IMG/VR virus record: IMGVR_UViG_3300034105_002079
Coordinates: 1-21,525 of that record
Direction: 5' to 3' (one strand)
Length of the DNA stretch: 21,525 nucleotides
Origin: a virus
Positions 2,096 through 19,017 of the stretch are shown here, in pieces. Every line of letters starts with the position of its first letter. Position 1 is the first letter of the stretch. Made by a program: the position numbers and the translations under genes. The notes below the pieces were generated by a model. That model did not search any database. It was given only the letters and a program-made list of their open reading frames with translations, and was not told where the DNA came from.

Positions 2096-2103
2096 ACAAG
2101 AAA

Positions 2104-2111
2104 TATTTATA
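2104..2111 (+). promoter_or_regulatory. Candidate late promoter box TATTTATA (fibre B)
   Basis: TATTTATA lies in the gap before fibre gene B, ending 22 bases before its ATG. It is one of eight copies (seven exact) found in gaps upstream of genes. Its role as the -10 element of a phage late promoter is inferred from recurrence and position. Confidence 0.55.
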
Positions 2112-2133
2112 ATAAAGTAAGAATCAAAAAATA

Positions 2134-4116
2134 ATGAAGATATACGATATAACAGGTATAGGGGCAAATCTAACTGGATCGTTCTCCGGTTCTTTTAAGG
2201 AGATATTTACAGGAACAGCAACAACTGCTTCATATGTTCAATACAGTAATGTAGCAAACAAACCTACACTTGTATCGGGATCATCACAAATTACTTATAG
2301 TGGAATATCTAGTAAACCTGCAGGTATAGTATCTGGCTCTAGCCAAGTAGCTGCTTTTGGGTATGCCATTACTGGTTCAAACCAGTTTAAGGCAAGTCAA
2401 GCTATCACTGGCTCTTTAACAGTAACTGGAGATATAGTTGCTCAAACATTAAACGTACAACAAGTAACTAGTAGTATAGTGTTTTCTTCTGGATCAAACA
2501 GGTTTGGAAATAACTCAGGCAATACTCATAGGTTTACTGGTAGTGTAAATATAACTGGTAGTTTAACAGTGAATGGAATAGCAACTTCTGGCACTGTTTC
2601 TGGTACAACCAACTATATAGGTAAATTTACTGGTACTAATACGATTGGAAATAGTCAGATATTTGACAACGGTTCAAACGTAGGTATTGGTACCGCCCTA
2701 CCAAGTGCAGGATTAGAAATCGAAACGGATGGTTCAGTTAAAACCGCACTAAGAGTTACCTCTAATCAGGCATTTAATGCTTCTCCGGTAACAGCCATAA
2801 TGTTTCGTTATAGAATTAGTTCTGGAACTACTATTGGAGGTGCAGTTATAAATGCAGCAAAAGATAACGCTACAGAAAGTAACCAAGCAGGTAATCTACA
2901 ATTTTGGACAAATAACGGAACTACATTAGCTGAACGCATGCGTATCACCTCAGGTGGTAACGTTGGAATTGGTGCCACACCAAGTGCATGGAATACAACT
3001 TCGAGAGCATTACAATTAACTAGTTTTGTATCACTTTCACAACAACACAGTGGTGCATTAAACTTAATGTCATATGCCATTGAAAGTAGTGCAAATAGCT
3101 TTACCTATGGGGATACAGGAGTTTTCCCTACCAGATTAAACATGAACCCAAATGATGGGATAATAACTTTTTCTAATGCTGGAACAGGTACAGCCGGTAA
3201 TGCTATAACATTTACCCCAAGATTAACTATACTAAATAATGGTAATGTTGGTATAGGCGCTACTAATCCCGGGGAGCAATTAGAATTATCCAAAGCAACT
3301 TATCCCACAGTTAAATTAATAGAAACAACCGATAACGCTTCAGGTTATTTTCAATATCATAGTGAAGCAAATGAATTTAGAGTAGTTGCAATTACCAGTC
3401 ATCCATTAATATTTAGTACTACTGATATTGAACGAATGCGCATCACTTCGGGGGGGATAGTTTCTATAAATGGTGGACTAACCACATATCACCAAGTTTC
3501 TATAAAATCAAATAGCACTCAAACTTATGGAGGACTTGCAGTTTACGCAACTTCTGGAGATAGATTTATTAATGTTCAGCACACCGGGACACAAGGTTTT
3601 ATCGAAGTAGATTTTGCGGGTTCATCAGGATTTAGTGATTTAGGATTTAAAACTGGAGGAAATCCGAGAATGACTATCACTTCTGGCGGTAACGTATTAA
3701 TTGGGACAACATCTAATATTGCAAGTTCTAAATTAAGAGTTAGTGGAAATTTACAAATTGATGGTTTCCAAAAAATGTACACCTATTATATTGTTGTAGG
3801 ACCAAACTCCACAGGAACTATTACTATAAGTAGCCCAACAGGTACTAATATGCAAGGCAGTATGCAAGTAATGGCAGGTGGATATGGTAACGGTATAACA
3901 GGAAATATTACGGGTTTATGGATGGTAGGTGGATTATTATTTTTTAACAATGCTTCAACAAGTACTATTACACAAATAGTAAACTCAGTTACTTCAGATG
4001 GAAGTATGAGTTTTCAACGATCGAGTGATCAATATACTGTAAGTTTAACTAATACCGCTCCAAACCCGACCGGAACAAAATCTTTCTATGTATCTGTAAT
4101 TATCAACGGTGAATAA
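2134..4116 (+). CDS. Tail fibre / adhesin-like structural protein B (660 aa)
   Basis: This is a complete paralogue of fibre A. The start gives MKIYDITGIGANLTGSFSGS. Next comes a segment with two SGSSQ units spaced by Gly/Pro-rich turns (about residues 48-72), then the 79-residue block shared with fibre A (about residues 68-146). At least five RMxITSGGNVxIG-type units follow (near nt 2680, 2930, 3220, 3430 and 3665), and then a unique C-terminus of about 110 residues rich in Thr, Ser and Gly from nt 3775. The repeated short strands suggest a fibrous beta-rich shaft, with the unshared end as receptor-binding tip (inference). Unlike fibre A it lacks the YEEGTWTPT motif, so the two proteins share a base and shaft style but carry different tips. 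No Shine-Dalgarno is visible; a TATTTATA box lies 22 bases upstream. Confidence 0.8.
   Translation: MKIYDITGIGANLTGSFSGSFKEIFTGTATTASYVQYSNVANKPTLVSGSSQITYSGISSKPAGIVSGSSQVAAFGYAITGSNQFKASQAITGSLTVTGDIVAQTLNVQQVTSSIVFSSGSNRFGNNSGNTHRFTGSVNITGSLTVNGIATSGTVSGTTNYIGKFTGTNTIGNSQIFDNGSNVGIGTALPSAGLEIETDGSVKTALRVTSNQAFNASPVTAIMFRYRISSGTTIGGAVINAAKDNATESNQAGNLQFWTNNGTTLAERMRITSGGNVGIGATPSAWNTTSRALQLTSFVSLSQQHSGALNLMSYAIESSANSFTYGDTGVFPTRLNMNPNDGIITFSNAGTGTAGNAITFTPRLTILNNGNVGIGATNPGEQLELSKATYPTVKLIETTDNASGYFQYHSEANEFRVVAITSHPLIFSTTDIERMRITSGGIVSINGGLTTYHQVSIKSNSTQTYGGLAVYATSGDRFINVQHTGTQGFIEVDFAGSSGFSDLGFKTGGNPRMTITSGGNVLIGTTSNIASSKLRVSGNLQIDGFQKMYTYYIVVGPNSTGTITISSPTGTNMQGSMQVMAGGYGNGITGNITGLWMVGGLLFFNNASTSTITQIVNSVTSDGSMSFQRSSDQYTVSLTNTAPNPTGTKSFYVSVIINGE
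2335..2571 (+). repeat. Paralogous fibre base module, copy 2
   Basis: Second copy of the 79-residue module, at a constant offset of 2333 bases from copy 1. It includes the shared stretch AQTLNVQQVTSS and the ending FTGSVNITGSLTV. Confidence 0.85.
2930..2960 (+). repeat. 31-base identical fibre repeat, copy 2
   Basis: Identical over 31 bases to 726-756, inside the other fibre gene; the flanking bases diverge at once on both sides. Confidence 0.85.
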
Positions 4117-4127
4117 AAATACATACA

Positions 4128-4135
4128 TATTTATA
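4128..4135 (+). promoter_or_regulatory. Candidate late promoter box TATTTATA (152-aa gene)
   Basis: Exact TATTTATA in the gap after fibre B, 79 bases before the next ATG. That is the longest spacing in the set, so this copy is less certain as the promoter of the 152-aa gene. Confidence 0.45.
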
Positions 4136-4214
4136 ACCATACAAGTTTAAAATTATTTGGAAACCCAAACTATATTTCATATATTAATCAATAAAACTAA
4201 ATTTTAAATCGTTT

Positions 4215-4673
4215 ATGCAAAACACAACGTTACAACTAGGACAAATTTTACAATTAGAGGCCGAAGTAAATGGAGTAGTAAATACTCAAACTGGAGAAAT
4301 TGTCTCCAAAGGCCTCATGAAGGAAGTACTCAAATTCAAAACCAAGTATTGGCTAATGCAATTATCCGAAGATTTGGTAGCAGAGAAAAAGAAAATCGAA
4401 GCAGTTAGAGACCAATTGGTTAAGGAATTGGGTGAAGAAGATGAAACTGGGTCAATTTCCCTTCCCGTATTTATTAATGAAGTAAAGGATGAGGAGGGTA
4501 AAGTAGTATCTAGAGAAGTTAATCCAAAGTTTGTTGATTTCCAAGAAAAATTCAACGAGCTATTAGCTGAAACTAAAGAACTTACTCATGGTAAATTCTT
4601 ACTAGAAGATTTTGAACTAGTAGAATCTGCAGAGGTATATCCCGTATTCTTTAAGTTAATTTCTGCTGAATAG
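4215..4673 (+). CDS. Hypothetical tail-module protein (152 aa)
   Basis: I do not recognise this protein firmly. It is a soluble, acidic, mostly helical-looking protein beginning MQNTTLQLGQILQLEAEV. A Lys/Glu-rich segment at about residues 50-78 could form a coiled coil, and the C-terminal half has FQEKFNELLAETKEL followed by an aromatic-rich end. The overall pattern (helical N-terminus, charged middle, F-x-x-L-L segment near the end) loosely recalls the DUF1617 phage family, but I would not assign it. It has no membrane segment or signal peptide. It sits alone between the fibre module and the sheath, with candidate promoter boxes on both sides and a weak hairpin after its stop, so it may have its own transcript. 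Confidence 0.75.
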   Translation: MQNTTLQLGQILQLEAEVNGVVNTQTGEIVSKGLMKEVLKFKTKYWLMQLSEDLVAEKKKIEAVRDQLVKELGEEDETGSISLPVFINEVKDEEGKVVSREVNPKFVDFQEKFNELLAETKELTHGKFLLEDFELVESAEVYPVFFKLISAE

Positions 4674-4674
4674 T

Positions 4675-4704
4675 AGTAGTTCTAAAAAAACTACTTTATT
4701 ATTT
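4675..4704 (+). terminator. Weak terminator-like hairpin after the 152-aa gene
   Basis: AGTAGT (4675-4680) can pair with ACTACT (4690-4695) around a nine-base A-rich loop, followed by TTATTATTTT. The stem is only 6 bp and AT-rich, so this is tentative. Confidence 0.35.
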
Positions 4705-4777
4705 TAGAATACTTAAATATCTCTAGGTATTTCTTATACTCTTTACTTAGAGGCATCTGTTTTGTAAATATAAAACC

Positions 4778-4785
4778 TATTTATA
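4778..4785 (+). promoter_or_regulatory. Candidate late promoter box TATTTATA (sheath)
   Basis: Exact TATTTATA, 46 bases before the sheath ATG. The rest of the 158-base gap (4674-4831) holds the weak hairpin and AT-rich leader; I see no gene in it. Confidence 0.55.
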
Positions 4786-4831
4786 ATGGAGTTGCAATTA
4801 ATGCACATTAAAAATAAAAGAAAAAATTAAC

Positions 4832-6511
4832 ATGGCAGAACAGATAATATCACCTGGGGTCTATTTACGTGAGAATGACATTTCAGTAAGACAGCCGGAA
4901 CCACTTATTGCGGGTGCCGCTTTTATTGGCCCAACAGTAATGGGTCCCGTATTAGAGCCAGTATTAGTTACCTCTTATAATGAATATGTAAAGAAGTTTG
5001 GTGACATACTTACTATAGGCACTAACAAGAAAGAATACTTTACTTCTATTGCAGTTAAGAATTATTTCAATCAAGGAGGAGAAACAGCACTTATTACAAG
5101 AGTAGTTTCAGGATCATATGGCAGCTTTACTTCTGCTACCACTACTGCTGTAGCACCTGCTAACACTTCTTCTGCGGCTCCTTTCCAATTAAAGACTTTT
5201 GGTAAGGGTATAGTTTATAATAGTAATAGTACCCTAGGATCTGACGGTAGCTTACCAAGTGGCTCTATTGAGAATTTAAGATTTGAAGTAGCAAGCGTAA
5301 ATAACAATGCTGGTACATTTACTCTATTAATTAGAAGAGGAGATGATCTAACTAGAAACAAAATTATCTTAGAATCATTTAATGTATCTCTAGACCCTGC
5401 ATCTGATATCTACATCGAAAGAGTAATTGGTAACCAATATAAGAATTACAATAGCACAGAGGGATATATTGAAGTAATAGGAGATTATCCTAACAGATCT
5501 AATTACGTAAGAGTATCTGCAGCCAATGCGGTAAATGATTACGTACCTTCAATGTCTGGATCACTTCCAACAAGACAGTCTGGATCATTTACAGGTGCTA
5601 CTGGCATTGTAAGTCCAACTGCTAAATTCTTCAACGAGGCATCTGGATCTACCCCACAAGGGGTTACTTCTACTAGCTACGATGTGGCTATCGATTTACT
5701 ATCAAACAAGGATGAATATCAATTCAACTTGATTGCGGTACCTGGACTTAACATTGAGGATAACGCAGCAACTATTAATAAAGTAGTTTCTCTTGCAGAA
5801 AGTAGAGGAGATGCAATCGCAGTAATTGACCCAGTACCATATAAGGCACTATTAGTAGATGTTACTACAGCAGCCGCAGGTGTTGATTCATCTTTTGCTG
5901 CAGCATACTGGCCTTGGGTACAAGTATTATCTGCCACAGGCAAGAACGCATTCGTACCAGCTTCAACAATTATCCCAGCAGTATATGCTTTGAATGATAG
6001 AGTTGCTGCACCTTGGTTTGCACCTGCAGGTTTAGTTAGAGGTGGAGTACCTGGAGTTATCCAAGCAGAAAGAAAGCTACCAAAAGCACTTAGAGATACA
6101 CTTTATGACAATAAAGTTAACCCTATTGCAACATTCCCAGGACAAGGCATATCAGTATTGGGTCAGAAGACTCTACAATCAGCTCCAACAGCTCTAGACA
6201 GAGTAAATGTTAGAAGATTGATTATTGAGTTGAAAGAGTTTGTCAATAATGTATCAAGAGGCTTATTGTTTGAGCAAAACACAATTGCAACAAGAAATAG
6301 ATTCCTAGCAGCAGTTAATCCATACTTGGAGTCTGTTGTACAAAGACAAGGGCTATTTGCTTACAATGTTGTAATGGATGACACAAACAATACCGCAGAT
6401 ATCATCGACAGAAACCTATTAGTGGGACAGATTTACATCCAACCAACTAAAACAGTTGAATTTATCGTGATTGATTTTGTTATTCAACCAACAGGAGCAT
6501 CATTCGAATAA
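4832..6511 (+). CDS. 18: Contractile tail sheath protein (gp18-like, 559 aa)
   Basis: The product is the T4 gp18-type sheath subunit, which polymerises around the tail tube and contracts at infection. The N-terminus MAEQIISPGVYLRENDIS is the usual sheath opening (SPGVY-x-x-E). It is followed by AAFIGPTVMGPVLEPVLVTSYNEYVKKFG, where the protein enters the polymerising domain, with YFTSIAVKNYFNQGG at about residues 69-83. Residues ~400-520 carry GLVRGGVPGV and an arm ending FLAAVNPYLESVVQRQGL, and the C-terminus ends in a strand-rich IQPTKTVEFIVIDFVIQPTG, as expected for sheath subunits whose termini cross-link neighbours. Length is somewhat short for gp18 (T4 659 aa), mainly in the variable middle. 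The tube gene follows 38 bases on, the usual order. No Shine-Dalgarno precedes the ATG. Confidence 0.93.
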   Translation: MAEQIISPGVYLRENDISVRQPEPLIAGAAFIGPTVMGPVLEPVLVTSYNEYVKKFGDILTIGTNKKEYFTSIAVKNYFNQGGETALITRVVSGSYGSFTSATTTAVAPANTSSAAPFQLKTFGKGIVYNSNSTLGSDGSLPSGSIENLRFEVASVNNNAGTFTLLIRRGDDLTRNKIILESFNVSLDPASDIYIERVIGNQYKNYNSTEGYIEVIGDYPNRSNYVRVSAANAVNDYVPSMSGSLPTRQSGSFTGATGIVSPTAKFFNEASGSTPQGVTSTSYDVAIDLLSNKDEYQFNLIAVPGLNIEDNAATINKVVSLAESRGDAIAVIDPVPYKALLVDVTTAAAGVDSSFAAAYWPWVQVLSATGKNAFVPASTIIPAVYALNDRVAAPWFAPAGLVRGGVPGVIQAERKLPKALRDTLYDNKVNPIATFPGQGISVLGQKTLQSAPTALDRVNVRRLIIELKEFVNNVSRGLLFEQNTIATRNRFLAAVNPYLESVVQRQGLFAYNVVMDDTNNTADIIDRNLLVGQIYIQPTKTVEFIVIDFVIQPTGASFE

Positions 6512-6528
6512 AAATTATAAGTTAGTAC

Positions 6529-6536
6529 TATTTATT
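6529..6536 (+). promoter_or_regulatory. Candidate late promoter box, variant TATTTATT (tube)
   Basis: TATTTATT, one base off the repeated motif, ends 13 bases before the tube ATG in the 38-base sheath-tube gap. It may give the tube gene its own late transcript. Confidence 0.4.
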
Positions 6537-6549
6537 TAAAAGATACAAA

Positions 6550-7041
6550 ATGGCCGTATTAGATACCAACGAAATGTTGTACAGAGCATTTGAACCTCAA
6601 TTAAAAAACAGGTTCGTGCTATATATGGATTCGATTCCTGCTTTTATGATTAAGAAGGTTAAAGCACCTACTTTCACAGACGAGCAGATAAAAATCCCAC
6701 ATATCAACTCTTATTTTAAAGTAAGAGGTGGTCAAAGAGTGTGGGAGGATATTGATATGACTCTATACCAACCAATTTCTCCTTCTGGAGCTCAGTCTGT
6801 AATGGAATGGGCACGATTGGGACACGAAACTGTAACTGGTAGATCTGGGTATTCTGACTTTTATAAAAAAGATTTAGTAATCAATATTATTGGCCCTCCA
6901 GGAGATATTGTAGGTGAGTGGATAATTAAAGGAGCTTTCTTGACTAAAGGTGACTTTGGAGACTACTCATGGGAAGATCCAGGAGCAACAAATGATATCG
7001 CAATAACAGTTGCTTGCGATGCTTGTATATTGAATTTTTAA
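6550..7041 (+). CDS. 19: Tail tube protein (gp19-like, 163 aa)
   Basis: T4 gp19-type tube subunit; hexamers stack to form the inner tail tube. The length (163 aa) matches T4 gp19 (163 aa). Supporting features are the opening LYRAFEPQLKNRFVLYMDSIPAF, a central IKIPHINSYFKVRGGQRVWEDIDMTLYQPISPSG, and WARLGHETVTGRSGY, arranged as in gp19 relatives, plus its place directly after the sheath. It lacks membrane segments, as expected for a tube protein. A strong intrinsic terminator starts 24 bases after the stop, so the sheath/tube transcript most likely ends here. The start is chosen at ATG 6550; the leader is A-rich with no Shine-Dalgarno. Confidence 0.92.
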   Translation: MAVLDTNEMLYRAFEPQLKNRFVLYMDSIPAFMIKKVKAPTFTDEQIKIPHINSYFKVRGGQRVWEDIDMTLYQPISPSGAQSVMEWARLGHETVTGRSGYSDFYKKDLVINIIGPPGDIVGEWIIKGAFLTKGDFGDYSWEDPGATNDIAITVACDACILNF

Positions 7042-7065
7042 ATCTATTTTTATACAATTACTTTT

Positions 7066-7095
7066 AAAAAAGCCTAGGAAACTAGGTTTTTTTTT
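7066..7095 (+). terminator. Intrinsic terminator after the tube gene
   Basis: AAAAAAGCCTAG (7066-7077) pairs with CTAGGTTTTTTT (7082-7093) across a GAAA tetraloop, with a nine-T run at 7087-7095. The A/T extension also makes it a possible bidirectional terminator. Confidence 0.88.
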
Positions 7096-7104
7096 GTATA
7101 TTGA

Positions 7105-7112
7105 TATTTATA
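7105..7112 (+). promoter_or_regulatory. Candidate late promoter box TATTTATA (tail assembly gene)
   Basis: Exact TATTTATA just 10 bases after the terminator and 22 bases before the next ATG, so the downstream gene must start a new transcript here or depend on readthrough. Confidence 0.6.
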
Positions 7113-7134
7113 CTAAATGTTACTTTAATTATTT

Positions 7135-7878
7135 ATGGATCAGAAATTTGAATTTCCAAAAGAGGCAGTTGAATTGCCATCTAAAGGGTTGGTATACCCA
7201 GAGTCCTCACCACTATCTAAAGGTGTTGTAGAGGTACGCTACATGACAGCGCAGCATGAGGATATTTTAACAAATCAAAATTACTTGCAGAAAGGAACTG
7301 TTATTGATAAGCTTATCCAAGCCCTATTGGTTGACGAAAGCATTACATACAGCGAACTTTTAATAGGAGATAAGGATGCTCTAATGGTTGCAGCAAGAAT
7401 TCTAGGTTATGGTAAAGAGTATGAAATCACATATGAGGGACAGCCCTATGTTGTAGATTTAACAACTATTGAGCATAAGAAAATAGACTTTGATTTATTG
7501 GCAAAAAGTAAGAATGAGTTTTATTTTACCCTACCTTCTACAGGTACTGAAGTAACTTTCAAACTTCTTAGCCATGCAGATGAGCAAAAGATAGATCAAG
7601 AAGTTCAGGGGATGAAGAAAATCAATAAAGATTTCTCAGGAGAACTATCCACAAGGCTAAAGCATATGATAACCTCTGTAGGAGGATCTAGAGAGACTAA
7701 GGACATTAGACAATTTGTAGATAAGCAATTACTTGCAGTAGACTCTAGAGCCCTTAGAAAGCACTTAGAAACCGTTCAACCTGGAGTTGATTTTAAATTC
7801 TATCCAGAAAATGGACCAGAGGGAGGGGTTGCTCTTCCTATAGGACTCAACTTTTTTTGGCCTGACTTCAGAGTATAG
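7135..7878 (+). CDS. Baseplate hub / tail assembly protein (T4 baseplate gp26-type), zero frame
   Basis: The 247-aa zero-frame product begins MDQKFEFPKEAVELPSKGLVYP. It has the block VRYMTAQHEDILTNQNYLQKG (about 35-55), then LIGDKDALMVAARILGYG, and the late stretch LPSTGTEVTFKLLSHADEQK. This layout resembles the T4-type baseplate hub/assembly protein family around gp26 (Pfam T4_baseplate), widespread in marine T4-like phages; the exact T4 counterpart is uncertain. Its place between the tube and tape measure genes is where tail assembly chaperones sit. The zero frame ends FFWPDFRV-stop right after a run of seven T. The +1 frame continues with coding-quality sequence to 8101, so the functional product may be a ~321-aa frameshift fusion in addition to this form. 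Confidence 0.85.
   Translation: MDQKFEFPKEAVELPSKGLVYPESSPLSKGVVEVRYMTAQHEDILTNQNYLQKGTVIDKLIQALLVDESITYSELLIGDKDALMVAARILGYGKEYEITYEGQPYVVDLTTIEHKKIDFDLLAKSKNEFYFTLPSTGTEVTFKLLSHADEQKIDQEVQGMKKINKDFSGELSTRLKHMITSVGGSRETKDIRQFVDKQLLAVDSRALRKHLETVQPGVDFKFYPENGPEGGVALPIGLNFFWPDFRV
7852..7858 (+). promoter_or_regulatory. Candidate programmed frameshift site (T7 run)
   Basis: In the zero frame the codons read AAC TTT TTT TGG. A P-site Phe-tRNA on the second TTT can re-pair perfectly with TTT one base forward (+1) or two bases back (-2). Both lead to GGC at 7859 in the open downstream frame. The +1 frame opens only after a TAG at 7841-7843 and the zero frame closes at 7878, so any shift must occur within these ~35 bases. 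Confidence 0.5.
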
Positions 7879-8101
7879 AGTTAGTTTATTCACTCAAATC
7901 CATGAGATAGTTTTTCATGGTAAGGGTGGATATTCTTTTGATGCAGTTTATAATATGCCAATATGGCTGAGAAACTTTACTGCAAAGAAGATAGCAGAGT
8001 ATTACGAAAAGGAAGCAGAGAGTCATAAAAACGCAAGCTCACCAAACTCACAACGTACAACGGTTAAAATACCAGACTATGTAAGCAAAGCTAGAAAATA
8101 A
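7859..8101 (+). CDS. Frameshift extension of the tail assembly gene (80 codons, +1 frame)
   Basis: The frame one base forward is open from 7844 to the TAA at 8099-8101 and reads from 7859 GLTSEYRVSLFTQIHEIV, then FHGKGGYSFDAVYNMPIWLR, then a Lys/Glu-rich helix and a Ser/Lys-rich tail. It looks like the short protein that follows gp26-type genes in T4-like phages (an MP-x-x-x-R core followed by a charged helix), so it is very likely coding. No ATG, GTG or TTG precedes the ATG at 7955, which lies inside the conserved-looking core and would give only 48 aa. Expression as a fusion by +1 or -2 shifting is therefore more likely than an independent start. A hairpin overlaps its stop codon. A real frameshift mutation or a one-base assembly error in the T run cannot be excluded. 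Confidence 0.7.
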   Translation, partial: GLTSEYRVSLFTQIHEIVFHGKGGYSFDAVYNMPIWLRNFTAKKIAEYYEKEAESHKNASSPNSQRTTVKIPDYVSKARK

Positions 8102-8114
8102 TCTAGCTTTTGCT
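8084..8114 (+). terminator. Terminator-like hairpin at the end of the frameshift extension
   Basis: AGCAAAGCTAG (8084-8094) pairs with CTAGCTTTTGCT (8103-8114), one T bulged, around the loop AAAATAAT that contains the +1-frame stop codon. There are only four T within the descending arm, so termination strength is uncertain. Confidence 0.6.
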
Positions 8115-8121
8115 ATTTATA
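8114..8121 (+). promoter_or_regulatory. Candidate late promoter box TATTTATA (tape measure)
   Basis: Exact TATTTATA whose first base is the last base of the preceding hairpin; it ends 14 bases before the tape measure ATG. Confidence 0.6.
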
Positions 8122-8135
8122 TAAAATAAGTATTA

Positions 8136-10487
8136 ATGGCACAAGATTTAGGTAATAGTCCAAAACAGCAAGCTGAAGTAATAGCAGAGACGTTATTATC
8201 TGTAGGGGCTAGAATATCCGAAACTATTAAGGATGCTATACAAGATGCAGTAGATGGTGTTGATGCAACAATATATGAGAAACTAGGAAATAGCCTTACA
8301 TCCTCCTTTTCAAAACTAGCTAAATTCTCAGAGGAGGCAGCGAACAATACTTTTAAAATATCAGAAGGGTTGTTAAATTCAGATTCTATATCTAAACAGT
8401 TATTAAGCTTAGAAGAAAAAAAATTAGCCATACAAAGACAGATGAGCTTGGCTAAAGAAATTTTGCAGGAGGATGATATAAATAGGCTTCAAACTGCATT
8501 TGATCAAACTGAGAAAATATTAGAAGTACAAAAAAAGCTTCTTCAAGAAGAAAAAGCTATCACCGATGCTGTAGATAAAAGAGTAGGACTTGTTGGTAAA
8601 CTTGCTGGGGCTATGAAAGCCATTCCAGGCCTAGGCAATGTCATAAATGCAAAAGAGGTAGACGCTGCATTAAGGAAAGCAGCTGTACAACTTGATGAAA
8701 ATGGGAACTTAGTACAAAGCGGTACAGGTAAGTTCAAGATGATGGCGATAGCTGCAAAGACTGTAGGAAAACAGTTTGCAACAGCCATGCTAGATCCAGG
8801 AGTCATAGTAGGTAAGATAGTAGAACAATTCTTTGCAATAAACAAAGCGTCTGTTGAACTAAGAAGATTGACGGGGGATACCGCTGTTAGTTTTAATATA
8901 TTTGCAAATGGAGCAGCATCCTCAGTTCAAATATTAGAAACAGCTGCTGAATTAACTAAGCAAATAGGATTTAATGCTCAAAGTGCATTTTCTCAAGACG
9001 TAATTGCGAATGCAGCCGACTTAAAAGTTGAAATGGGGCTGGCAGCAGATGAGGCTGGCGGTATTGCGATGATGGCTCAAACAAGCGGTAAGAGTGTGGA
9101 TTCTATTACGGATAGCGTAGTGGGCACAACCTCCGCATTTAATAGAGCAAATAGGTCTGCAGTATCTCAGGGATTAGTTCTTAGAGATGTAGCAAAAACT
9201 TCAGATAGTATTAAATTATCGTTGGGTAATAATCCAAAAGCCTTAGCTGACGCAGCATCACAGGCAAAAAGATTGGGAACAGACTTAGCTGGATTAAACC
9301 AAATAGCAACTAGCCTACTTGAATTTGAATCATCTATTGAAGCCGAATTAGAAGCACAACTTTTAACTGGTAATCAAATAAACCTATCTAAGGCAAGAGA
9401 ACTTGCTTTAACTAATGATTTGGAAGGTTTAGGAACTGAAATATTCAAGAATACTGTTGATATAGAAAAGTTCGGCAAAATGGGTAGGCTAGGTCAAGAA
9501 GCTCAAGCAAAAGCTCTTGGAATGACTAGAGACCAGCTTGCTAGAGTTGCTTATTTACGAGCACTTGATAGTAAGATGACTGATGAGCAGGCCTCAGCTG
9601 CTGCCGGAGTTAATGCGGAGGAGATGAAGCGTATATCGGTACAAGAAAATTTTACAGCTGCCTTAAATAAAGTAATGGGGGCACTTGCTCCAATTTTAGA
9701 AATGGTAGGTAATTTATTTTCAATACCATTGTTTGGTCCTATGCTTGCTGGATCTTTATTATTAATACCTGCAATAAGTATTATTAGTCAGGGCTTTATG
9801 GCTATGGCAGGGGCATTAGGTTTTGCAACAGCTGCTAAAGTGGCTAATACTGGGGCAACGGTATCAAATACGGTTGCAAACACTGGTTTAGCAGCTTCTA
9901 ATACAGCAGTGACAGCTTCCTCTGCCCCAGCAGCCGGGGGATTTTCGGCAATGGGAGCTGCTTTGAAAAGCTTTGGAGCAGCGGCGGCAACAGCTATACC
10001 TACATTACTTACCATAGCCGCAGTGGCAGCCGGTATAGGATTAGCATTTGCAGGAGTTGGATTTGCTTTAAAATCTGTACCTGAAATATTAACTTTAATA
10101 ACCCCAGAGAAAGCAGCAGGTATGGTTTTACTTGGTCAAGCATTTGGTGGGCTTGCTTTAGGATTAGCAGCTATTGCAGTTTCAGGATTAGCAGCATTGC
10201 CAGTATTATTAGGTCTTCAAAAATTAGGTGTTCTAGGTGGAGCTATTGCCGTACAAGCAGGTGCATCCCCGGGAGGAGCAGCTATTGCTGGATCGCAGAA
10301 GCCAGTTGAAAGCCCACAGGCACCAGCTGCATCTTTATCATTAGATCCTTTAGTGACTGAAATAAAATTAATGAGGGAAGAAATGACATCTCTTATGAAA
10401 CAAGTTATGGGTAGGGAGATTAAAGTATACCTAGATGGATATTTAGTTGGTCAGGGAACTCAACAGGCTCAAACTTCATCAGGTTAA
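8136..10487 (+). CDS. Tail tape measure protein (783 aa)
   Basis: A long helical protein placed right after the tail assembly gene, the standard position of the tape measure (T4 gp29 role: sets tail length and leaves the tail tube at DNA injection). Residues ~75-145 are charged with heptad-like Leu/Ile spacing (EEKKLAIQRQM, KILEVQKKLLQEEK), suiting a coiled coil. Residues ~519-565 and ~608-708 are strongly hydrophobic, Ala/Gly-rich stretches (SIPLFGPMLAGSLLLIPAIS and several later ones), as in tape measures that enter the host membrane. The C-terminus has MREEMTSLMKQVMGREIKVYLDG, the short strand-and-loop end typical of the family. No lytic domain is visible. It is long for a T4 gp29 homologue (590 aa), predicting a longer tail. 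Confidence 0.85.
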   Translation: MAQDLGNSPKQQAEVIAETLLSVGARISETIKDAIQDAVDGVDATIYEKLGNSLTSSFSKLAKFSEEAANNTFKISEGLLNSDSISKQLLSLEEKKLAIQRQMSLAKEILQEDDINRLQTAFDQTEKILEVQKKLLQEEKAITDAVDKRVGLVGKLAGAMKAIPGLGNVINAKEVDAALRKAAVQLDENGNLVQSGTGKFKMMAIAAKTVGKQFATAMLDPGVIVGKIVEQFFAINKASVELRRLTGDTAVSFNIFANGAASSVQILETAAELTKQIGFNAQSAFSQDVIANAADLKVEMGLAADEAGGIAMMAQTSGKSVDSITDSVVGTTSAFNRANRSAVSQGLVLRDVAKTSDSIKLSLGNNPKALADAASQAKRLGTDLAGLNQIATSLLEFESSIEAELEAQLLTGNQINLSKARELALTNDLEGLGTEIFKNTVDIEKFGKMGRLGQEAQAKALGMTRDQLARVAYLRALDSKMTDEQASAAAGVNAEEMKRISVQENFTAALNKVMGALAPILEMVGNLFSIPLFGPMLAGSLLLIPAISIISQGFMAMAGALGFATAAKVANTGATVSNTVANTGLAASNTAVTASSAPAAGGFSAMGAALKSFGAAAATAIPTLLTIAAVAAGIGLAFAGVGFALKSVPEILTLITPEKAAGMVLLGQAFGGLALGLAAIAVSGLAALPVLLGLQKLGVLGGAIAVQAGASPGGAAIAGSQKPVESPQAPAASLSLDPLVTEIKLMREEMTSLMKQVMGREIKVYLDGYLVGQGTQQAQTSSG

Positions 10488-10507
10488 ACAATAATTTAAT
10501 TAAAAAC

Positions 10508-10515
10508 TATTTATA
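10508..10515 (+). promoter_or_regulatory. Candidate late promoter box TATTTATA (67-aa gene and baseplate operon)
   Basis: Exact TATTTATA 15 bases before the ATG at 10531. The following genes up to 16257 are separated by gaps of at most 4 bases or by overlap and have no further copy, so this box probably drives the whole baseplate operon. Confidence 0.6.
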
Positions 10516-10530
10516 TTAAAATACACAACA

Positions 10531-10734
10531 ATGGCAATAATCCAAACTCAACTCAGATCTAAATTTGGCCGTAATGGAGTCAAACCAGCTCAACTTCCTG
10601 GCTCAAACAGAGGATCAACTCTACACAATACATCCTCCATAAACAATATTCCACCGATACCATCCCCACAAGCATCAGTGTTAGATTTGGATGGTAAAAC
10701 CCCAAAGAAATATTTAGATAACAAACCTAAATAA
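10531..10734 (+). CDS. Small Ser/Pro-rich protein at the head of the baseplate operon (67 aa)
   Basis: A 67-residue basic, low-complexity protein beginning MAIIQTQLRSKFGRNG, with a Ser/Pro/Asn-rich middle and ending LDLDGKTPKKYLDNKPK. It has no cysteine, signal peptide or membrane segment. I do not recognise a family. The gene lies between the tape measure and a large baseplate gene with a 4-base gap to the latter, so cotranscription is nearly certain and a small structural or assembly role in the baseplate is plausible. Confidence 0.7.
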   Translation: MAIIQTQLRSKFGRNGVKPAQLPGSNRGSTLHNTSSINNIPPIPSPQASVLDLDGKTPKKYLDNKPK

Positions 10735-10738
10735 TATA

Positions 10739-12523: not shown

Positions 12524-12819
12524 TTAAGAGATATAGTACGATACCCATTTTATCGGATGCTGATTCTAAGAAATATAGAAAGCATGTTATTTATCCAGAT
12601 ATTCCTTTAAGTGAGGATGATTTGTATGCAATAACAGTTGTAGGGGATAGATATGATAAATTGGCATATGATTATTATAGTGATACAACGCTGTGGTGGA
12701 TTATAGCGTCTTCAAACCCACAAGCAGGTAGTCATTTAACACCTTTGGCTGGAGTACAAATTAGAATACCTGCCAATCCACAGGCAGCATTAGAGTTATA
12801 TAGAAGGTTAAATTCGTAA
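12520..12819 (+). CDS. 53: Baseplate wedge protein with LysM-like fold (gp53-like, 99 aa)
   Basis: T4 gp53-type proteins join neighbouring baseplate wedges and contain a LysM-like module. Visible here are GDRYDKLAYDYYSDTTLWWIIASSNPQ and a final LAGVQIRIPANPQ, the pattern of gp53 and LysM proteins (an initial YDKLA helix, W-W-I-I-A, then a G-x-x-I-x-I-P strand). The product is shorter than T4 gp53 (196 aa), covering only the LysM-like core. I chose ATG 12520 (MIKRYSTIPIL): it overlaps the upstream stop as ATGA and is preceded by AGGAG seven bases upstream, the only convincing Shine-Dalgarno I see in the window. A TTG at 12400 would need 40 extra residues inside the upstream gene. Confidence 0.85.
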   Translation: MIKRYSTIPILSDADSKKYRKHVIYPDIPLSEDDLYAITVVGDRYDKLAYDYYSDTTLWWIIASSNPQAGSHLTPLAGVQIRIPANPQAALELYRRLNS

Positions 12820-12821
12820 GT

Positions 12822-15653
12822 ATGGCTGATTCCATTATAGGGGCCCCACTATCTAAAGACGTACATGATCAAATATTATTACGTCAGGAAAAAGTTAGAT
12901 CTCCACAAAGAGATAACAATACCCTATTTTTTTTAAATTCAAATAATGCGTGGATTAAATTATCATCTGGGGCAGATACTTTTACAGTTGAAGGAGAATC
13001 TGAAATACCAGACCCTACATTATCTAAAAATAACATATTAGGATTTACTCAAAATAAAGCAGGGGTTGGTGATCTATACAGAGAAACAGCATCAAGAGGT
13101 TACAGACCTGTACCCGGAGTAAAGCAAGTACAAGTTAAAAGTAAAGGTACTTATGGTGCTCTAAGAGAAACAGAAGTAAGCTTTGTTGTCTGGTCTTTAG
13201 AAGATTTAGATACCTTGGAGTTAGTTTATCTCCGACCTGGTTTTTCTATGTTATTAGAATGGGGTCATACAGTTTACTTTAATACCGCAGGCGAGTTTAA
13301 CACAGCATCAAGTACGATTAATGATTTCTTTTCAAGGTATACCTCAACTGGGGATAAGTCAACACAGCAAATCATACAAGATAAAATACAAGTACTTAGA
13401 GAGCAAACTAGTTATAACTACGATGCTTTATTTGGCTACGTTAAGAACTTCTCTTGGTCTTTTAGAAAAGATGGGGGATATGATTGCACTATTTCAATCG
13501 CATCAGCAGGCAGCCTTATAGAGGGTCTCAGAGCCGACATAGGATTACAGAATATCCCAAGTGATATTGTTGATAGAAAATCTATAGAAGAAATGAAGGA
13601 TAGCTTAAAAAGTCCTTTTCATTTTATATTTGAACAACTTGAAAAAAAGAATGCGTTAGGCGCAAGACTTACAAGAAGTGGAAATAGAATATCTCTAGGT
13701 ACTTTAAAAACCAACACTAATCCTCAAATTTCTAAAGTATTTGAAAGACTTAAAGTATCCGATAAAACTTATGTTTATGGTAGAAAAGTTACTACATTTT
13801 CGTTATTAGGAATAATTAACAAAAGAGAATCTGAGTATTGGATGCATTTGGGAATGGTGTTCGATATAATAAATAACTTTCTAACGCTTAGAAACGAAAA
13901 TGGTAAAACAATTGAGCTGTATTCTGGAGCCCAGGATGTGGACAATACTGGAGATTATGAACTAGAATCAAAGTATATAACTACTAAGTATCACTTTTCG
14001 ATAGATCCTTTTAGGGTTCATCTTCCCTTTGCGGCAGAAGTACCTAGCGGGTTAATTGGATTATCCGAGAATGTAGGTAAATTTTTGGGTAGGATACCAT
14101 CTGAAACATCACTATTAGGTAAAGCAAAACCATTATTCTCTAATTTGTTTGAACCTCCTAGAGGACAAAACGATGATATTTTAAATATAGCAGTTAGCTC
14201 TATAGTACTTCAAGAACTATTTGATAGAAATTTAGAAGAGCCAGATTCTCAAAATAGGGATTTAAAAAGTATTTTAGATAGTCTAGCTTCAATTTTGACA
14301 GACCATTTAGGAGGTGTAAATGAATTTGCTTTTCACTATGATGAGCAACGGAATTTACATTTATTAGTTGATAGAAAAAATACCCCAACAGAAAAATCCA
14401 TTACTCAATTTCCAGTTATAACACTTACTGGACTTAGCTCTACAGTGGAATCTGTTAGTTTATCTAGTAAACTTTCAAATAAAGTAGGTACTCAAATTGC
14501 TATAGCAGCCCAAGGATCTGGCCAAAATTATCAAGAGAATGTTTCTGAGTTTTTGAAATGGAACGAAGGCGTAGTTGATAGACATGGGGTTGGAGGTACT
14601 TATGATACAGGTGATGCTACTCAAGTTGTAGATACAGTTGCAGAGGAGTACGCAAGAAAAACAAAGTGGCTAGAACTTGCGGCAGAAGTTTATAGAACTA
14701 ACGGTAGTCAGGATTCTTATGATTCAGCACAATATTCTGAATTAAAATCTTATCATAGAATTTATAATTCTGATTACGTATTAGCTACACAACAGATACT
14801 TGGAAATGCTGAAAAGGGAATTATACCTGTTGAGCTTTCCTTTACTATGATGGGGATATCTGGAATAGATATTGCAGAATCTTTTAAAGTATCAAAGGGT
14901 ATATTGCCTACTAAATACTACGGAAAGTTCGGGTTTATAATTACCGGGTTAGAACATTCAATAGGATTGAAGTGGACAACTACTATAAAAACTCAATTCT
15001 ATATTTTAGAACCACCATCAGAGGAGCAGAAACAAAAAATTACTACAAGAATAAATCCAGCAAGACCTGCAGGATATGTAAATAGTTGGACTGGTAATAC
15101 GTCTACTACTCAAACAGGATCACCTAGTGGTGGACGAGTATCTCAAGGAGCTGTTAACCCTTTTACAGGGCCTACTCCTAATGCTGATTTCCTAAGAGGC
15201 GTTTTAAAGTCTCTAGGATATTTAGAGAAGGGTACCGAACTTTCAAATGGAGGGGATATTACTTTAGAAACGGCAAAGTACTCAGCTGCTGTGGCTCAAA
15301 GGATAAAGCAAGTATCACCAAGTTTAGTTCTTACATTTACCGGAGGCAATGATATATATCACCAGAACTTAAATTATACATCTAGACACACTCTAGGGAG
15401 AGGAGTTGATTTTGTAATCTCATCACCAACAACTGCAAACATTAATTTAATAGTGGCACAACTAGACAATTTTGTACTAGCTAATTTACCTTTCGCAAGA
15501 TATCTTGATGAGTATTCCTCCGCAACTTCGGCAGCAACGGGAGGACACTTTCACCTATCATGGGGAGATGGAACAGAAGGGCAGGCAGCTGTTAATAGAG
15601 CTAAAAAAAGAGGCGGGGCAGGTGTATTAGCACCAATTTTCTTTGTAACATAA
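12822..15653 (+). CDS. Baseplate hub-like protein with C-terminal LAS/M15-type peptidase (943 aa)
   Basis: The N-terminal ~740 residues appear structural: VPGVKQVQVKSKGTYGALRE (about 98-116) and LVYLRPGFSMLLEWG (about 134-148) suggest a hub-type baseplate protein, and LELSFTMMGISGI-like strands occur near residue 680. A Thr/Ser/Gly/Pro linker (about 750-785) leads to a C-terminal domain of ~150 residues. This has SRHTLGRGVDF with H856 and D863, then GGHFHLSWG with H909 and H911. H-x6-D followed by H-x-H is the zinc-binding pattern of LAS metallopeptidases (M15 D-Ala-D-Ala peptidases and phage endolysins). I infer a tail-tip enzyme that cuts peptidoglycan cross-links during injection, the role served in T4 by the gp5 lysozyme. 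The gene starts 2 bases after the gp53-like stop and is followed 1 base later by the next gene. Confidence 0.85.
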   Translation: MADSIIGAPLSKDVHDQILLRQEKVRSPQRDNNTLFFLNSNNAWIKLSSGADTFTVEGESEIPDPTLSKNNILGFTQNKAGVGDLYRETASRGYRPVPGVKQVQVKSKGTYGALRETEVSFVVWSLEDLDTLELVYLRPGFSMLLEWGHTVYFNTAGEFNTASSTINDFFSRYTSTGDKSTQQIIQDKIQVLREQTSYNYDALFGYVKNFSWSFRKDGGYDCTISIASAGSLIEGLRADIGLQNIPSDIVDRKSIEEMKDSLKSPFHFIFEQLEKKNALGARLTRSGNRISLGTLKTNTNPQISKVFERLKVSDKTYVYGRKVTTFSLLGIINKRESEYWMHLGMVFDIINNFLTLRNENGKTIELYSGAQDVDNTGDYELESKYITTKYHFSIDPFRVHLPFAAEVPSGLIGLSENVGKFLGRIPSETSLLGKAKPLFSNLFEPPRGQNDDILNIAVSSIVLQELFDRNLEEPDSQNRDLKSILDSLASILTDHLGGVNEFAFHYDEQRNLHLLVDRKNTPTEKSITQFPVITLTGLSSTVESVSLSSKLSNKVGTQIAIAAQGSGQNYQENVSEFLKWNEGVVDRHGVGGTYDTGDATQVVDTVAEEYARKTKWLELAAEVYRTNGSQDSYDSAQYSELKSYHRIYNSDYVLATQQILGNAEKGIIPVELSFTMMGISGIDIAESFKVSKGILPTKYYGKFGFIITGLEHSIGLKWTTTIKTQFYILEPPSEEQKQKITTRINPARPAGYVNSWTGNTSTTQTGSPSGGRVSQGAVNPFTGPTPNADFLRGVLKSLGYLEKGTELSNGGDITLETAKYSAAVAQRIKQVSPSLVLTFTGGNDIYHQNLNYTSRHTLGRGVDFVISSPTTANINLIVAQLDNFVLANLPFARYLDEYSSATSAATGGHFHLSWGDGTEGQAAVNRAKKRGGAGVLAPIFFVT

Positions 15654-15654
15654 T

Positions 15655-16257
15655 ATGTATATTCCAAGTCACCAGTATGAAGTAAAAGTATTAGTTGATA
15701 CTGAGCAGCGGCTCCAGTATGAAAATGGTACGCCTTTTACCGGATCTAAATATGTTGAGTTGACTAATGGTACAAAATACGATGTGCCAAATTCTGACTT
15801 AGAAAAGGGTAACTTCGATAGGGGTAGAAAATTATTAACTCCTATAAATTTTAGAGACCCTAGATTATCCCTTAATTTTTTGGCACCTTTTATCCCTAAA
15901 AGAAAACCGGGTAAGACTACGATTAAAAGAAAGTTTGTCAAGCATAAGGTAACAGGTAAGATAGTAGAGGTTGATGACAATAAGTACCAAGAGGTTTTTA
16001 CTGAGGAGCCATCACATTTAGCTTTTGGTGAATTGACTTGGCACATTGCAGGTCCTCTGTATGATATATCCTCTTTGAATATATTGCAGGAGGGTACTGT
16101 TACAAAGAATGCAAGAGAATTACAAGCATTGGAGAGTAAACTTCCAGGAGTGAGTTCATATGTGGTTGATTTAACCTTCCTATCAGATCCACAATATGTG
16201 AATCAAACTCCTCAAATTCCACTAAATATAAATATAGTTTTACCATCTCCATCTTAA
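15655..16257 (+). CDS. Hypothetical baseplate-operon protein (200 aa)
   Basis: The start is one base after the hub stop (TAATATG), so it is the last gene of the baseplate operon. The 200-aa product begins MYIPSHQYEVKVLVDTEQRL. It has a strongly basic stretch at about residues 80-105 (FIPKRKPGKTTIKRKFVKHK) and a C-terminal part with LTWHIAGPLYDISSLNILQEG and a Pro-rich end. No family is recognised. Position argues for a baseplate or tail-tip structural component; there is no enzyme motif, signal peptide or membrane helix. The gap that follows (16258-16316) is AT-rich, lacks an exact TATTTATA and leads into the replication module. Confidence 0.75.
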   Translation: MYIPSHQYEVKVLVDTEQRLQYENGTPFTGSKYVELTNGTKYDVPNSDLEKGNFDRGRKLLTPINFRDPRLSLNFLAPFIPKRKPGKTTIKRKFVKHKVTGKIVEVDDNKYQEVFTEEPSHLAFGELTWHIAGPLYDISSLNILQEGTVTKNARELQALESKLPGVSSYVVDLTFLSDPQYVNQTPQIPLNINIVLPSPS

Positions 16258-16316
16258 AAGTTGGAATTTAGAATTTAAAAGAATACCTTAGTGCCATAGG
16301 TTATATTTAAAAGGTT

Positions 16317-17639
16317 ATGGAGTTCATCTTAGAGTCAACTAAGAGCTTATCAGTTCTTGATGAGTACATGTGCTTGCCTACGTTTTTAGGAATAGTTCCT
16401 TTAAATGATAGGTATCACCCCAAATTAAACGGGGTTTCTGCTCTATATCTAGGGTTCAAGGGCTCAAAGGATAGCTTTATAATCCCTATACAGCACTCTG
16501 AGTGCAATAATTTTAGCCTAGAGGAGGTAATTCCACATTTAAAAAGATTTAAAAACCTATATACGGTTTCTAGGAAGGAAGCCCTTTACTATCTAGGTTC
16601 TCAATCTTGCATTGACATTTCATTAATTGCCCTTCTTTTAGAGGGTACTAAATTAGAATTTAGATCTCCAGTATCATCGATAGATTATTTTTATAGGGTT
16701 CATTCAGATTTTTTTCCTATAAATTCTATTATCCCAATTTTAAAATTACACGAGAAGTGGGAACACCTTTTCAATTCAGTAAAGAGGTATATGGGTACAG
16801 AGTTGCCTGAATATTTCAATTTCTACAATACAAAGACTATAAATGTTTATTATCTTCTTGAGCAGTCTGGATTAACCATAACTGACAATTTTTTAGATTA
16901 CTACACCGATATAGATTACAAGTACAATTTATTGGAGGGTAAGATATACACGTGGTACAATCCGTACACGATAACCACTAGGCCATCCAATACTTTTAAT
17001 AGGATAAACTTTGCTGCTTTAAATAAGGAGTCCGGGGTTAGGAATGAAATTGTACCTGAATTTGATTATCTAGTTGAGTTTGATTACGATGGAAGTCATG
17101 TTAGAATTCTGTGTGATCAAATTGGATATGAGTTAGCTTCTGGCCAAGCCCATGAGCAATTGGCCCACTTATATTTTCCCAATCAAAAAATTACACCTGA
17201 ATTATATGAACAGTCAAAGAAAATAACTTTTAATGCTTTTTATGGGAGTATACCAGATAGGTACAAAAATCTTGAGATTTTTAAAAAACTACAGGAGTAT
17301 TTAATTGAGTTGGAGGAAACATATAGTAAATTTGGGTATCTAAATGATTCATATACTGGAAGACCTATTCACATCGAAGGGGATAATCCTTCCATATCTA
17401 AATTGTTGAATTACACGATACAGAGTTTAGAGGCGAGTAGGAATGTGGGAGTGTTGGAGAAGCTACTCAAATACTTAAATAGTAAGAAGAGTAATTTGAT
17501 TCTTTACACTTACGATTCATTTCTAATAGATTTCTCAAAGGAGGATGGCAAAATTGCACTAGAGGATATTGGAATAATCCTATCAGAAAACAATAAGTAC
17601 CCCGTTAAATTTAAATACGGCAAATCCTTAAATCTTTAA
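16317..17639 (+). CDS. Compact family A DNA polymerase (440 aa), exonuclease apparently lost
   Basis: The C-terminal half follows the family A (Pol I/T7) palm and fingers in order. There is a T/R segment TITTRPSNTFNRIN (about 218-231; compare T-x-T-G-R-x-S-S-x-x-P-N-x-Q-N). Motif A is EFDYDGSHVRIL with D256 as metal ligand. Motif B is KKITFNAFYG with K301, F305, Y309 (K-x3-F-x3-YG). A YTGRPIHIEGDN loop and NYTIQSLEAS (365-374; compare N-x-x-I/M-Q-G-T-A-A-D) follow, then motif C, YTYDSFLIDF, with D400. Residues ~38-112 look like a decayed 3'-5' exonuclease fold (GVSALYLGF, FIIPIQH, CIDISLIALLLEG), but the DxE and the N-x3-D motifs are not evident. In motif A the usual Glu is His261, and motif C has Ser401 in place of Glu. 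It is much shorter than Klenow (605 aa) or T7 gp5 (704 aa). Confidence 0.85.
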   Translation: MEFILESTKSLSVLDEYMCLPTFLGIVPLNDRYHPKLNGVSALYLGFKGSKDSFIIPIQHSECNNFSLEEVIPHLKRFKNLYTVSRKEALYYLGSQSCIDISLIALLLEGTKLEFRSPVSSIDYFYRVHSDFFPINSIIPILKLHEKWEHLFNSVKRYMGTELPEYFNFYNTKTINVYYLLEQSGLTITDNFLDYYTDIDYKYNLLEGKIYTWYNPYTITTRPSNTFNRINFAALNKESGVRNEIVPEFDYLVEFDYDGSHVRILCDQIGYELASGQAHEQLAHLYFPNQKITPELYEQSKKITFNAFYGSIPDRYKNLEIFKKLQEYLIELEETYSKFGYLNDSYTGRPIHIEGDNPSISKLLNYTIQSLEASRNVGVLEKLLKYLNSKKSNLILYTYDSFLIDFSKEDGKIALEDIGIILSENNKYPVKFKYGKSLNL

Positions 17640-17662
17640 TTACATTAAGCAAAAAATTGTTC

Positions 17663-17670
17663 TATTTATA
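17663..17670 (+). promoter_or_regulatory. Candidate late promoter box TATTTATA (143-aa gene)
   Basis: Exact TATTTATA 12 bases before the ATG of the 143-aa gene; the only exact copy I see in the replication module. Confidence 0.55.
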
Positions 17671-17682
17671 ACTATAATAAAA

Positions 17683-19015: not shown

Positions 19016-19017
19016 TA

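Follow-up and report, generated by a model that had tools for sequence, protein, structure and literature searches.

The 21,525-base virus fragment recorded in IMG/VR as IMGVR_UViG_3300034105_002079 (positions 1 to 21,525, here called the window) encodes tail sheath, tail tube and baseplate-hub-like proteins, together with gp32-, UvsX- and 5'-exonuclease-like proteins, and a long open reading frame (ORF) occupies the tape-measure position. Its closest isolates are the Flavobacterium phages immuto (70% identity in UvsX and 61% in the sheath protein). In the short gaps between these genes stands a recurrent eight-base box, TATTTATA, whose placement, conservation and preference for virion genes can be observed directly. 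The box is real and strongly conserved, and it is best explained as a variant of the T4-type late promoter.

Seven exact copies are found on the + strand of the window, each located 20-87 nucleotides (nt) upstream of a + strand gene, and none of them falls within + strand coding sequence (Table 1). These are the seven sites listed by the first-pass annotation, which also reported a one-base variant at 6529, now read as TATTTATT, and placed all sites in gaps upstream of + strand genes; all this is borne out. Its remark that no exact copy lies in coding sequence has to be limited to the + strand, because both copies on the - strand (8477 and 16227), which it missed, sit inside + strand genes. 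Dinucleotide shuffles of the window give 3.83 copies (standard deviation 1.97) on both strands, versus nine seen, a number that none of the 100 shuffles reached; this amounts to about 1.9 copies per strand, and the earlier estimate of roughly three by chance on one strand was therefore slightly high. Within the gaps, where seven copies are seen, an order-2 Markov model of the gaps predicts 0.57. TATTTATA is the most gap-enriched of the 685 8-mers occurring in the window gaps and ranks first among the 112 A/T 8-mers of 3+5 composition in the window, and the T4 late box TATAAATA has no sense copy in these gaps. The counts of a control pattern, ATATTTAT, were not used because it overlaps the extended motif.

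Conservation, gene classes and anatomy of the box

The enrichment extends to related phages. In the immuto type record (NC_055915.1; 160,410 bp, nearly all genes on one strand), the deposited annotation places 24 copies of TATTTATA in 7.4 kb of gaps, all of them preceding a + strand gene, and six in 153 kb of genes. The whole genomes G001, G003 and Mel-JY01 were counted with our own ORF caller, which accepts only ATG starts. With own ORF calls, sense-strand copies upstream of and within coding sequence number 7 and 0 in the window, 25 and 4 in immuto, 24 and 7 in G001, and 20 and 5 in G003. The comparison of gaps and genes for both boxes, proposed at first pass as a check, shows TATTTATA to be gap-enriched in these four sequences and more weakly so in Mel-JY01. 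The other proposed check, motif discovery across related genomes, returns TATTTATA as the top gap 8-mer both in the window and in immuto, where it leads 4341 8-mers and TATAAATA ranks 88th. Boxes are also carried by the fragment G002.

At the tail sheath gene, conservation can be followed in 80 IMG/VR loci around relatives of this gene, from which five with less than 100 nt upstream were left out. The exact box precedes the gene in 64 of the remaining 75 loci, and TATAAATA in none (0/75); the loci comprise 37 distinct 60-nt upstream sequences, 27 of them with the exact box. Taking all genes of these loci, there are 198 copies in 424 distinct upstream sequences versus 26 in coding sequence. By position, the window and immuto have boxes in common before the sheath, tube, hub and tape measure genes and the next small gene; the tube box, TATTTATT in the window, is exact in immuto, where the box of the tape measure gene lies 26 nt upstream. 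Many sheath genes present tandem boxes of the form TATTTAT[AT], 53-60 nt apart, between -130 and 0 (e.g. in L015, L022, L046 and L056); in the 44 of the 75 loci that were compared for this, picked to cover the 37 distinct upstream sequences, a distance of 57 nt accounts for 19 of 36 spacings, and the upstream box of the tandem is often found directly 3' of a terminator-like hairpin.

In T4, which served as a control, TATAAATA is the top word and TATTTATA, with six upstream copies, takes rank 2; all six lie in divergent gaps, on the other strand of a TATAAATA that precedes the opposite gene, and two of them overlap it as TATTTATAAATA. The first 37.5 kb of Rhodothermus phage RM378 contain no sense TATTTATA before genes and one intergenic TATAAATA. 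Judging from titles and the beginnings of abstracts, none of the papers listed gives an account of TATTTATA as a phage late promoter, and three papers in which the sequence occurs in connection with phages and promoters deal, by their titles, with different topics.

From the perspective of gene classes, two motifs divide the gaps of immuto. TATTTATA is present in 17 of the 37 gaps of the virion block versus 7 of the 78 other gaps (Fisher p 1.3e-5), in agreement with the enrichment upstream of late (virion) genes that the first-pass annotation anticipated. A second motif, TAnnTTTAG[AG]T, occupies 22 gaps, most of which precede small genes at about 60-76 kb, and is distributed in the opposite way, with 1/37 virion-block gaps versus 21/78 others (Fisher p 0.0017). 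All 22 copies have a TTG starting exactly 23 nt upstream, and the resulting TTG-N20-TAnnTTTAG fits the Bacteroidota housekeeping promoter, whose consensus is given as TTTG/TAnnTTTG (PMC6847099, PMC9723704). The 24 immuto TATTTATA boxes, by contrast, show no TTG at a fixed spacing and lack both elements of such a promoter, a TTG at -33 and a TAnnTTTG at -7. The two motifs never share a gap in immuto (0 cases) and are likewise mutually exclusive in G001 and G003. This gene-class pattern suggests that the host-type motif may act as an early promoter.

The anatomy of the box was obtained from 69 distinct sites in immuto, G001 and G003. The base preceding it is A in 36 sites, C in 32, G in one and T in none, that is, A or C in 68/69. 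Counting the first T of the box as 0, an A is found at +11 in 56 sites and at +12 in 63. Information is confined to the region from -1 to +12, with no -35-like block and no more than weak signals further upstream, at -30 and -19, and the box therefore appears as a single 8-bp A/T -10-like element that lacks a -35 element. In immuto, the distance from the start of the box to the start codon has a median of 25 nt (interquartile range (IQR) 21-29, range 9-76), and that from the end of the previous gene to the box has an IQR of 5-52 nt (range 0-125). The steady distance to the start, the asymmetric flanks, the enrichment and conservation in relatives and the preference for virion genes all speak for reading the box in the sense direction, as the first-pass annotation preferred.

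The T4 box TATAAATA is described as occupying -13 to -6 (PMC1524935), and gp55 as having deep pockets for A-12 and A-8 and a shallow pocket for A-9 (PMC7892883). Placed in the same register, TATTTATA would keep -13 to -11 and -8 to -6, and only -10/-9 would be altered, from AA to TT. It matches the TATAAATA consensus neither exactly nor nearly, differing at two central positions. The box need not count as reversed, because the in-register difference is limited to -10/-9. The first-pass description of a reversed T4 box is correct in that TATTTATA is the exact reverse complement of TATAAATA; this resemblance is probably a coincidence of sequence.

A sigma-like protein family in the relatives

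The late-sigma family phrog_234 has a single weak match in immuto, to the 'hypothetical' protein KNV73_gp118 (E 0.008), and likewise a single one in G001 (E 0.014); the two proteins are orthologues of each other. Relatives of gp118 are encoded on at least 600 IMG/VR contig stretches. In an alignment of 37 members (immuto and 36 of the 80 sigma loci; a smaller set, A5, holds 23 of them), weak matches to phrog_234 are seen for 20 and to Pfam Sigma70_r2 for 22. On six records, Sigma70_r2 detects only T4 gp55 (E 0.0045) and the gp118-family gene of G001 (E 0.011), neither of which reaches the curated cut-off, and profile comparison by hhalign of the family with eight gp55s, from 1,953 matching records, gives an E of 2.2e-4 and a probability of 45. 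A further family, phrog_12791, found only T4 gp55, and a PDB sequence search with the gp118 family gave nothing relevant.

The AlphaFold2 model of gp118 (predicted local distance difference test, pLDDT, 76.6; predicted template modelling score, pTM, 0.49) most closely matches, among PDB entries, chain 7d7c_F, the T4 gp55 of the gp55-dependent open complex (125 residues aligned, Z 9.9, root-mean-square deviation 5.5), and all 50 matches listed are sigma subunits by entry title and chain. With the next sigmas at Z 9.1-9.8, gp55 is tied with them. Foldseek alone gave nothing significant for the full model, although ranks 1-3 were nonetheless sigma subunits. On these grounds, the assignment of the gp118 family as a sigma-region-2-like protein is well supported by the model, and gp118 is likely the sigma that reads TATTTATA. 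The gp55-type sigma proposed at first pass stands to the extent that three near-complete relatives encode a sigma-like phage protein, with more distant occurrences elsewhere. This protein may be an orthologue of gp55 itself, but Z values near 9 lie within the range of chance matches between helical proteins, and the leading matches score alike.

Searched against eight records, the family profile matches immuto, G001, G003, the uncultured phage LR756508 (E 8.9e-53), Mel-JY01 (E 6.9e-46) and RM378, and neither T4 nor the fragment G002. In Mel-JY01, recorded from a cyanobacterium, the motif persists together with the sigma orthologue. The gp118-family gene of LR756508 has a further match, at E 0.005, to another family of sigmas, phrog_1740. 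In RM378 (17032-17826; 128335-128943), a hypothetical protein shows a weak match to the gp118 family (E 6e-4), and phrog_1740 finds a distinct sigma (E 6.9e-35). The window, being a fragment of 21.5 kb, does not include a gp118-family gene.

The box and the sigma candidate occur together on many contigs, since TATTTATA stands just after the sigma gene, within 160 nt of its 3' side in 62 of 79 sigma loci (one of the 80 left out), and before the next gene in the examples printed. Directly after the sigma candidate, the loci L098-L177 show a small conserved gene (MGLDTTIFGKKTVSDVLKEIYDNS and similar), which in most loci printed lies behind its own TATTTATA. TATAAATA is also frequent upstream of genes in the sigma loci, with 46 matches in 310 distinct upstream sequences; among the matches listed, these are by eye mostly A/T-rich leaders or intragenic, and do not precede virion genes.

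Interpretation and alternative readings

Taken together, TATTTATA preceded by A or C is likely a sense-direction, -10-only late promoter of a phage-specific type, where lateness and the factor involved are what we infer. After infection, the phage-encoded sigma-region-2 protein of the KNV73_gp118 family would join the host core RNA polymerase, and the sigma-bound enzyme would melt TATTTATA and read it as its -10 element, no -35 element being involved. Compared with the T4 box, it would encounter TT instead of AA at -10/-9, while the adenines at -12 and -8, which gp55 holds in deep pockets, would be retained. Transcription would begin some 12-13 nt past the first T of the box, frequently on a conserved A, and most transcripts would then carry an A-rich leader, 7-20 nt or so in length. 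Early genes would instead use TTG-N20-TAnnTTTAG, like a promoter of the host housekeeping sigma. T4-type late promoters are transcribed late and start 13 nt after the first T.

A more specific version of this model is rather doubtful: that a large T4-related clade of Bacteroidota phages, mostly uncultivated, possesses a single-chain late sigma, in which a gp55-like region 2 is joined to a strongly conserved C-terminal domain that binds the core in place of gp33, a short and variable protein, and which would act on TATTTATA clamp-free. According to a T4 review (PMC2988020), a fused sigma for late transcription, which this would be, has not been found in nature. The extra C-terminal domain of gp118, of about 95 residues and modelled at a pLDDT of 90, holds some of the most conserved stretches of the protein; folded alone and searched with Foldseek and VIA, it matched neither sigma-4 nor gp33, and the highest Z, 6.5, belonged to an unrelated protein. 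A search for clamps in five relatives with phrog_223 (gp45, which this family does find in T4), PF00712 (bacterial beta) and PF00705 (PCNA_N) gave no match, although distant clamps could escape it.

Several observations weigh against a late promoter read by the gp118 family. The enrichment is weaker in Mel-JY01, with 15 copies upstream and 15 in coding sequence, and 11 of the 75 sheath loci have no exact box, five of them carrying TATTTATT and six nothing similar. The limits of the immuto virion block, on which the gene-class comparison is based, were drawn from the annotation after the sites were known; 20 of its 37 gaps, including that of the major capsid gene, have no exact box, and 7 of the 78 non-virion gaps do carry it. 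Boxless virion genes may depend on upstream boxes. LR756508 encodes a clear gp118 orthologue, yet TATTTATA is missing from the 30 gaps inspected in the neighbourhood of its sheath gene, and the fragment G002 has boxes and no sigma match. Finally, the sequence matches of gp118 are all weak or below curated cut-offs, and its fold score is of a size that helical proteins can reach by chance.

Among the alternatives, it is improbable, though least so, that the boxes are late or middle promoters for the host polymerase with a host sigma and a phage activator, without a phage sigma. The assignment of the phage sigma is indirect and LR756508 has the orthologue without the box, both of which would suit this explanation; the boxes, however, are without the TTG found at -33 in every one of the 22 host-type boxes and break the TAnnTTTG consensus, the 69 sites have no conserved activator-like upstream element beyond the weak signals at -30 and -19, and the persistence of motif and sigma orthologue in a phage recorded from a cyanobacterium is also unfavourable to it. 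An identity of the box with the host-type promoter was rejected on account of the missing TTG and the mutual exclusion with TTG-N20-TAnnTTTAG.

It is very unlikely that TATTTATA is some other DNA or mRNA element that merely happens to precede genes, such as a leader or translation signal, a terminator tail, or a replication or packaging site. Flavobacterial translation starts are reported to favour A-rich upstream sequence (PMC6847099), and the upstream tandem box of sheath genes directly follows a terminator-like hairpin. Nevertheless, gaps with the host-type motif, which precede ordinary genes, never contain TATTTATA (0 shared), the spread of 9-76 nt between box and start in immuto is unlike that of a translation signal, and most of the boxes listed, by eye, have no hairpin directly upstream.

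The proposal that the boxes are antisense TATAAATA promoters of T4 type, firing upstream to make, for instance, antisense or replication-primer RNA, has hardly any probability left and was rejected on spacing, asymmetric flanks and gene layout: the exact reverse complementarity and the pairs in T4 divergent gaps would allow it, but there is little to transcribe backwards because the + strand carries nearly all genes (in immuto, 216 of the 219 ORFs called), the spacing is steady to the downstream start and not to the upstream gene end, and sense TATAAATA is only weakly enriched, with three of seven intergenic immuto copies overlapping TATTTATA as TATTTATAAATA and none before sheath genes.

A late promoter of this kind would give phages on hundreds of environmental contigs a late-gene signal that can be read, together with a candidate sigma from among proteins hitherto called 'hypothetical', and TATTTATA would allow likely early and late genes to be separated from sequence alone. 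With a clamp apparently lacking, the replication coupling of late transcription outside T4 becomes testable in a cultured phage, as immuto grows on Flavobacterium sp. LMO8.

Further features and comparison with known systems

Table 1. Boxes and associated features of the window; distances run from box start to start codon
Feature	Position	Strand	Details
Box A+TATTTATA	2103..2111	+	exact match, flanks; 30 nt 5' of tail-fibre-like ORF at 2134
Box A+TATTTATA	4127..4135	+	exact match, flanks; 87 nt 5' of ORF at 4215
Box C+TATTTATA	4777..4785	+	exact match, flanks; 54 nt 5' of tail sheath gene
Tail sheath gene (virion gene behind box)	4832..6511	+	phrog_23, E 2.7e-72
Variant box C+TATTTATT	6528..6536	+	21 nt 5' of tail tube gene
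Tail tube gene (virion gene behind variant box)	6550..7041	+	phrog_4542, E 5.3e-14
Intrinsic-terminator-like hairpin, CCTAG-GAAA-CTAGG then T9	7073..7095	+	read directly; adjoins the next box on its upstream side
Box A+TATTTATA	7104..7112	+	exact match; 30 nt 5' of baseplate-hub-like gene at 7135
Baseplate-hub-like gene (virion gene behind box)	7135..7878	+	phrog_150, E 9.1e-9
Box C+TATTTATA	8113..8121	+	exact match; 22 nt 5' of 783-amino-acid ORF at 8136 (tape-measure position)
Box C+TATTTATA	10507..10515	+	exact match, flanks; 23 nt 5' of small ORF at 10531
Box C+TATTTATA	17662..17670	+	exact match; 20 nt 5' of ORF at 17683, beside gp32/UvsX-like genes

Other features of these genomes deserve mention. 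The tail-fibre-like ORFs at 89-1846 and 2134-4113 of the window are built of repeated 'RMRITSGGNVGIG'-like units, and the second has no Pfam match. Between the baseplate-hub-like and tape-measure genes, the window (7840-8102) and immuto (150495-150760) share a conserved reading frame without an ATG of its own, which is +1 (or -2) relative to the hub gene and has TTTGGCCTGA at the overlap in both; a programmed frameshift is likely. A 440-amino-acid ORF of the window (16317-17639), for which a Pfam search gave no match, corresponds by position to the 441-amino-acid gene of immuto (1-1326) annotated as a family A DNA polymerase. A second, larger family A polymerase gene is located at 37898-40231 of immuto, and the two annotations suggest that this polymerase is split or duplicated there. 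Annotated genes for QueC, QueD, QueE, QueF and DpdA in immuto (18607-19488, 30008-31443, 34089-34883 and 36095-37015) suggest a 7-deazaguanine modification of its DNA.

With regard to known systems, the Bacteroidota housekeeping promoter as described in PMC6847099 and PMC9723704 resembles the second immuto motif, TTG-N20-TAnnTTTAG, and differs from the TATTTATA boxes, in which both the TTG at -33 and the TTTG half are absent. The late promoters of T4 (TATAAATA, served by gp55, gp33 and gp45) are closer: in both cases an 8-bp, A/T-only, -10-like box without a -35 element stands before virion genes, a phage protein with sigma region 2 is at hand, gp55 being the best structural match of gp118, and the A at -12 and at -8, for which pockets are described (PMC7892883), is kept. 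Unlike T4, TATTTATA has TT for AA at -10/-9 and is preceded by A or C at 68 of 69 sites, the gp118 sigma candidate carries an additional conserved C-terminal domain, and immuto is annotated with a family A polymerase, a DnaB-type helicase and a DnaG-type primase. Finally, Aeromonas phage Aeh1 is reported to pair a late promoter CTAAATA with a diverged gp55 (PMC1524935; PMC2988020), which is likewise a T4-type late box that drifted along with its sigma, although the change in Aeh1 affects -13/-12 and that in TATTTATA affects -10/-9. The boxes described here would thus extend the record of co-drift between T4-type late promoters and their sigmas, known earlier at -13/-12 in Aeh1, to the centre of the box.

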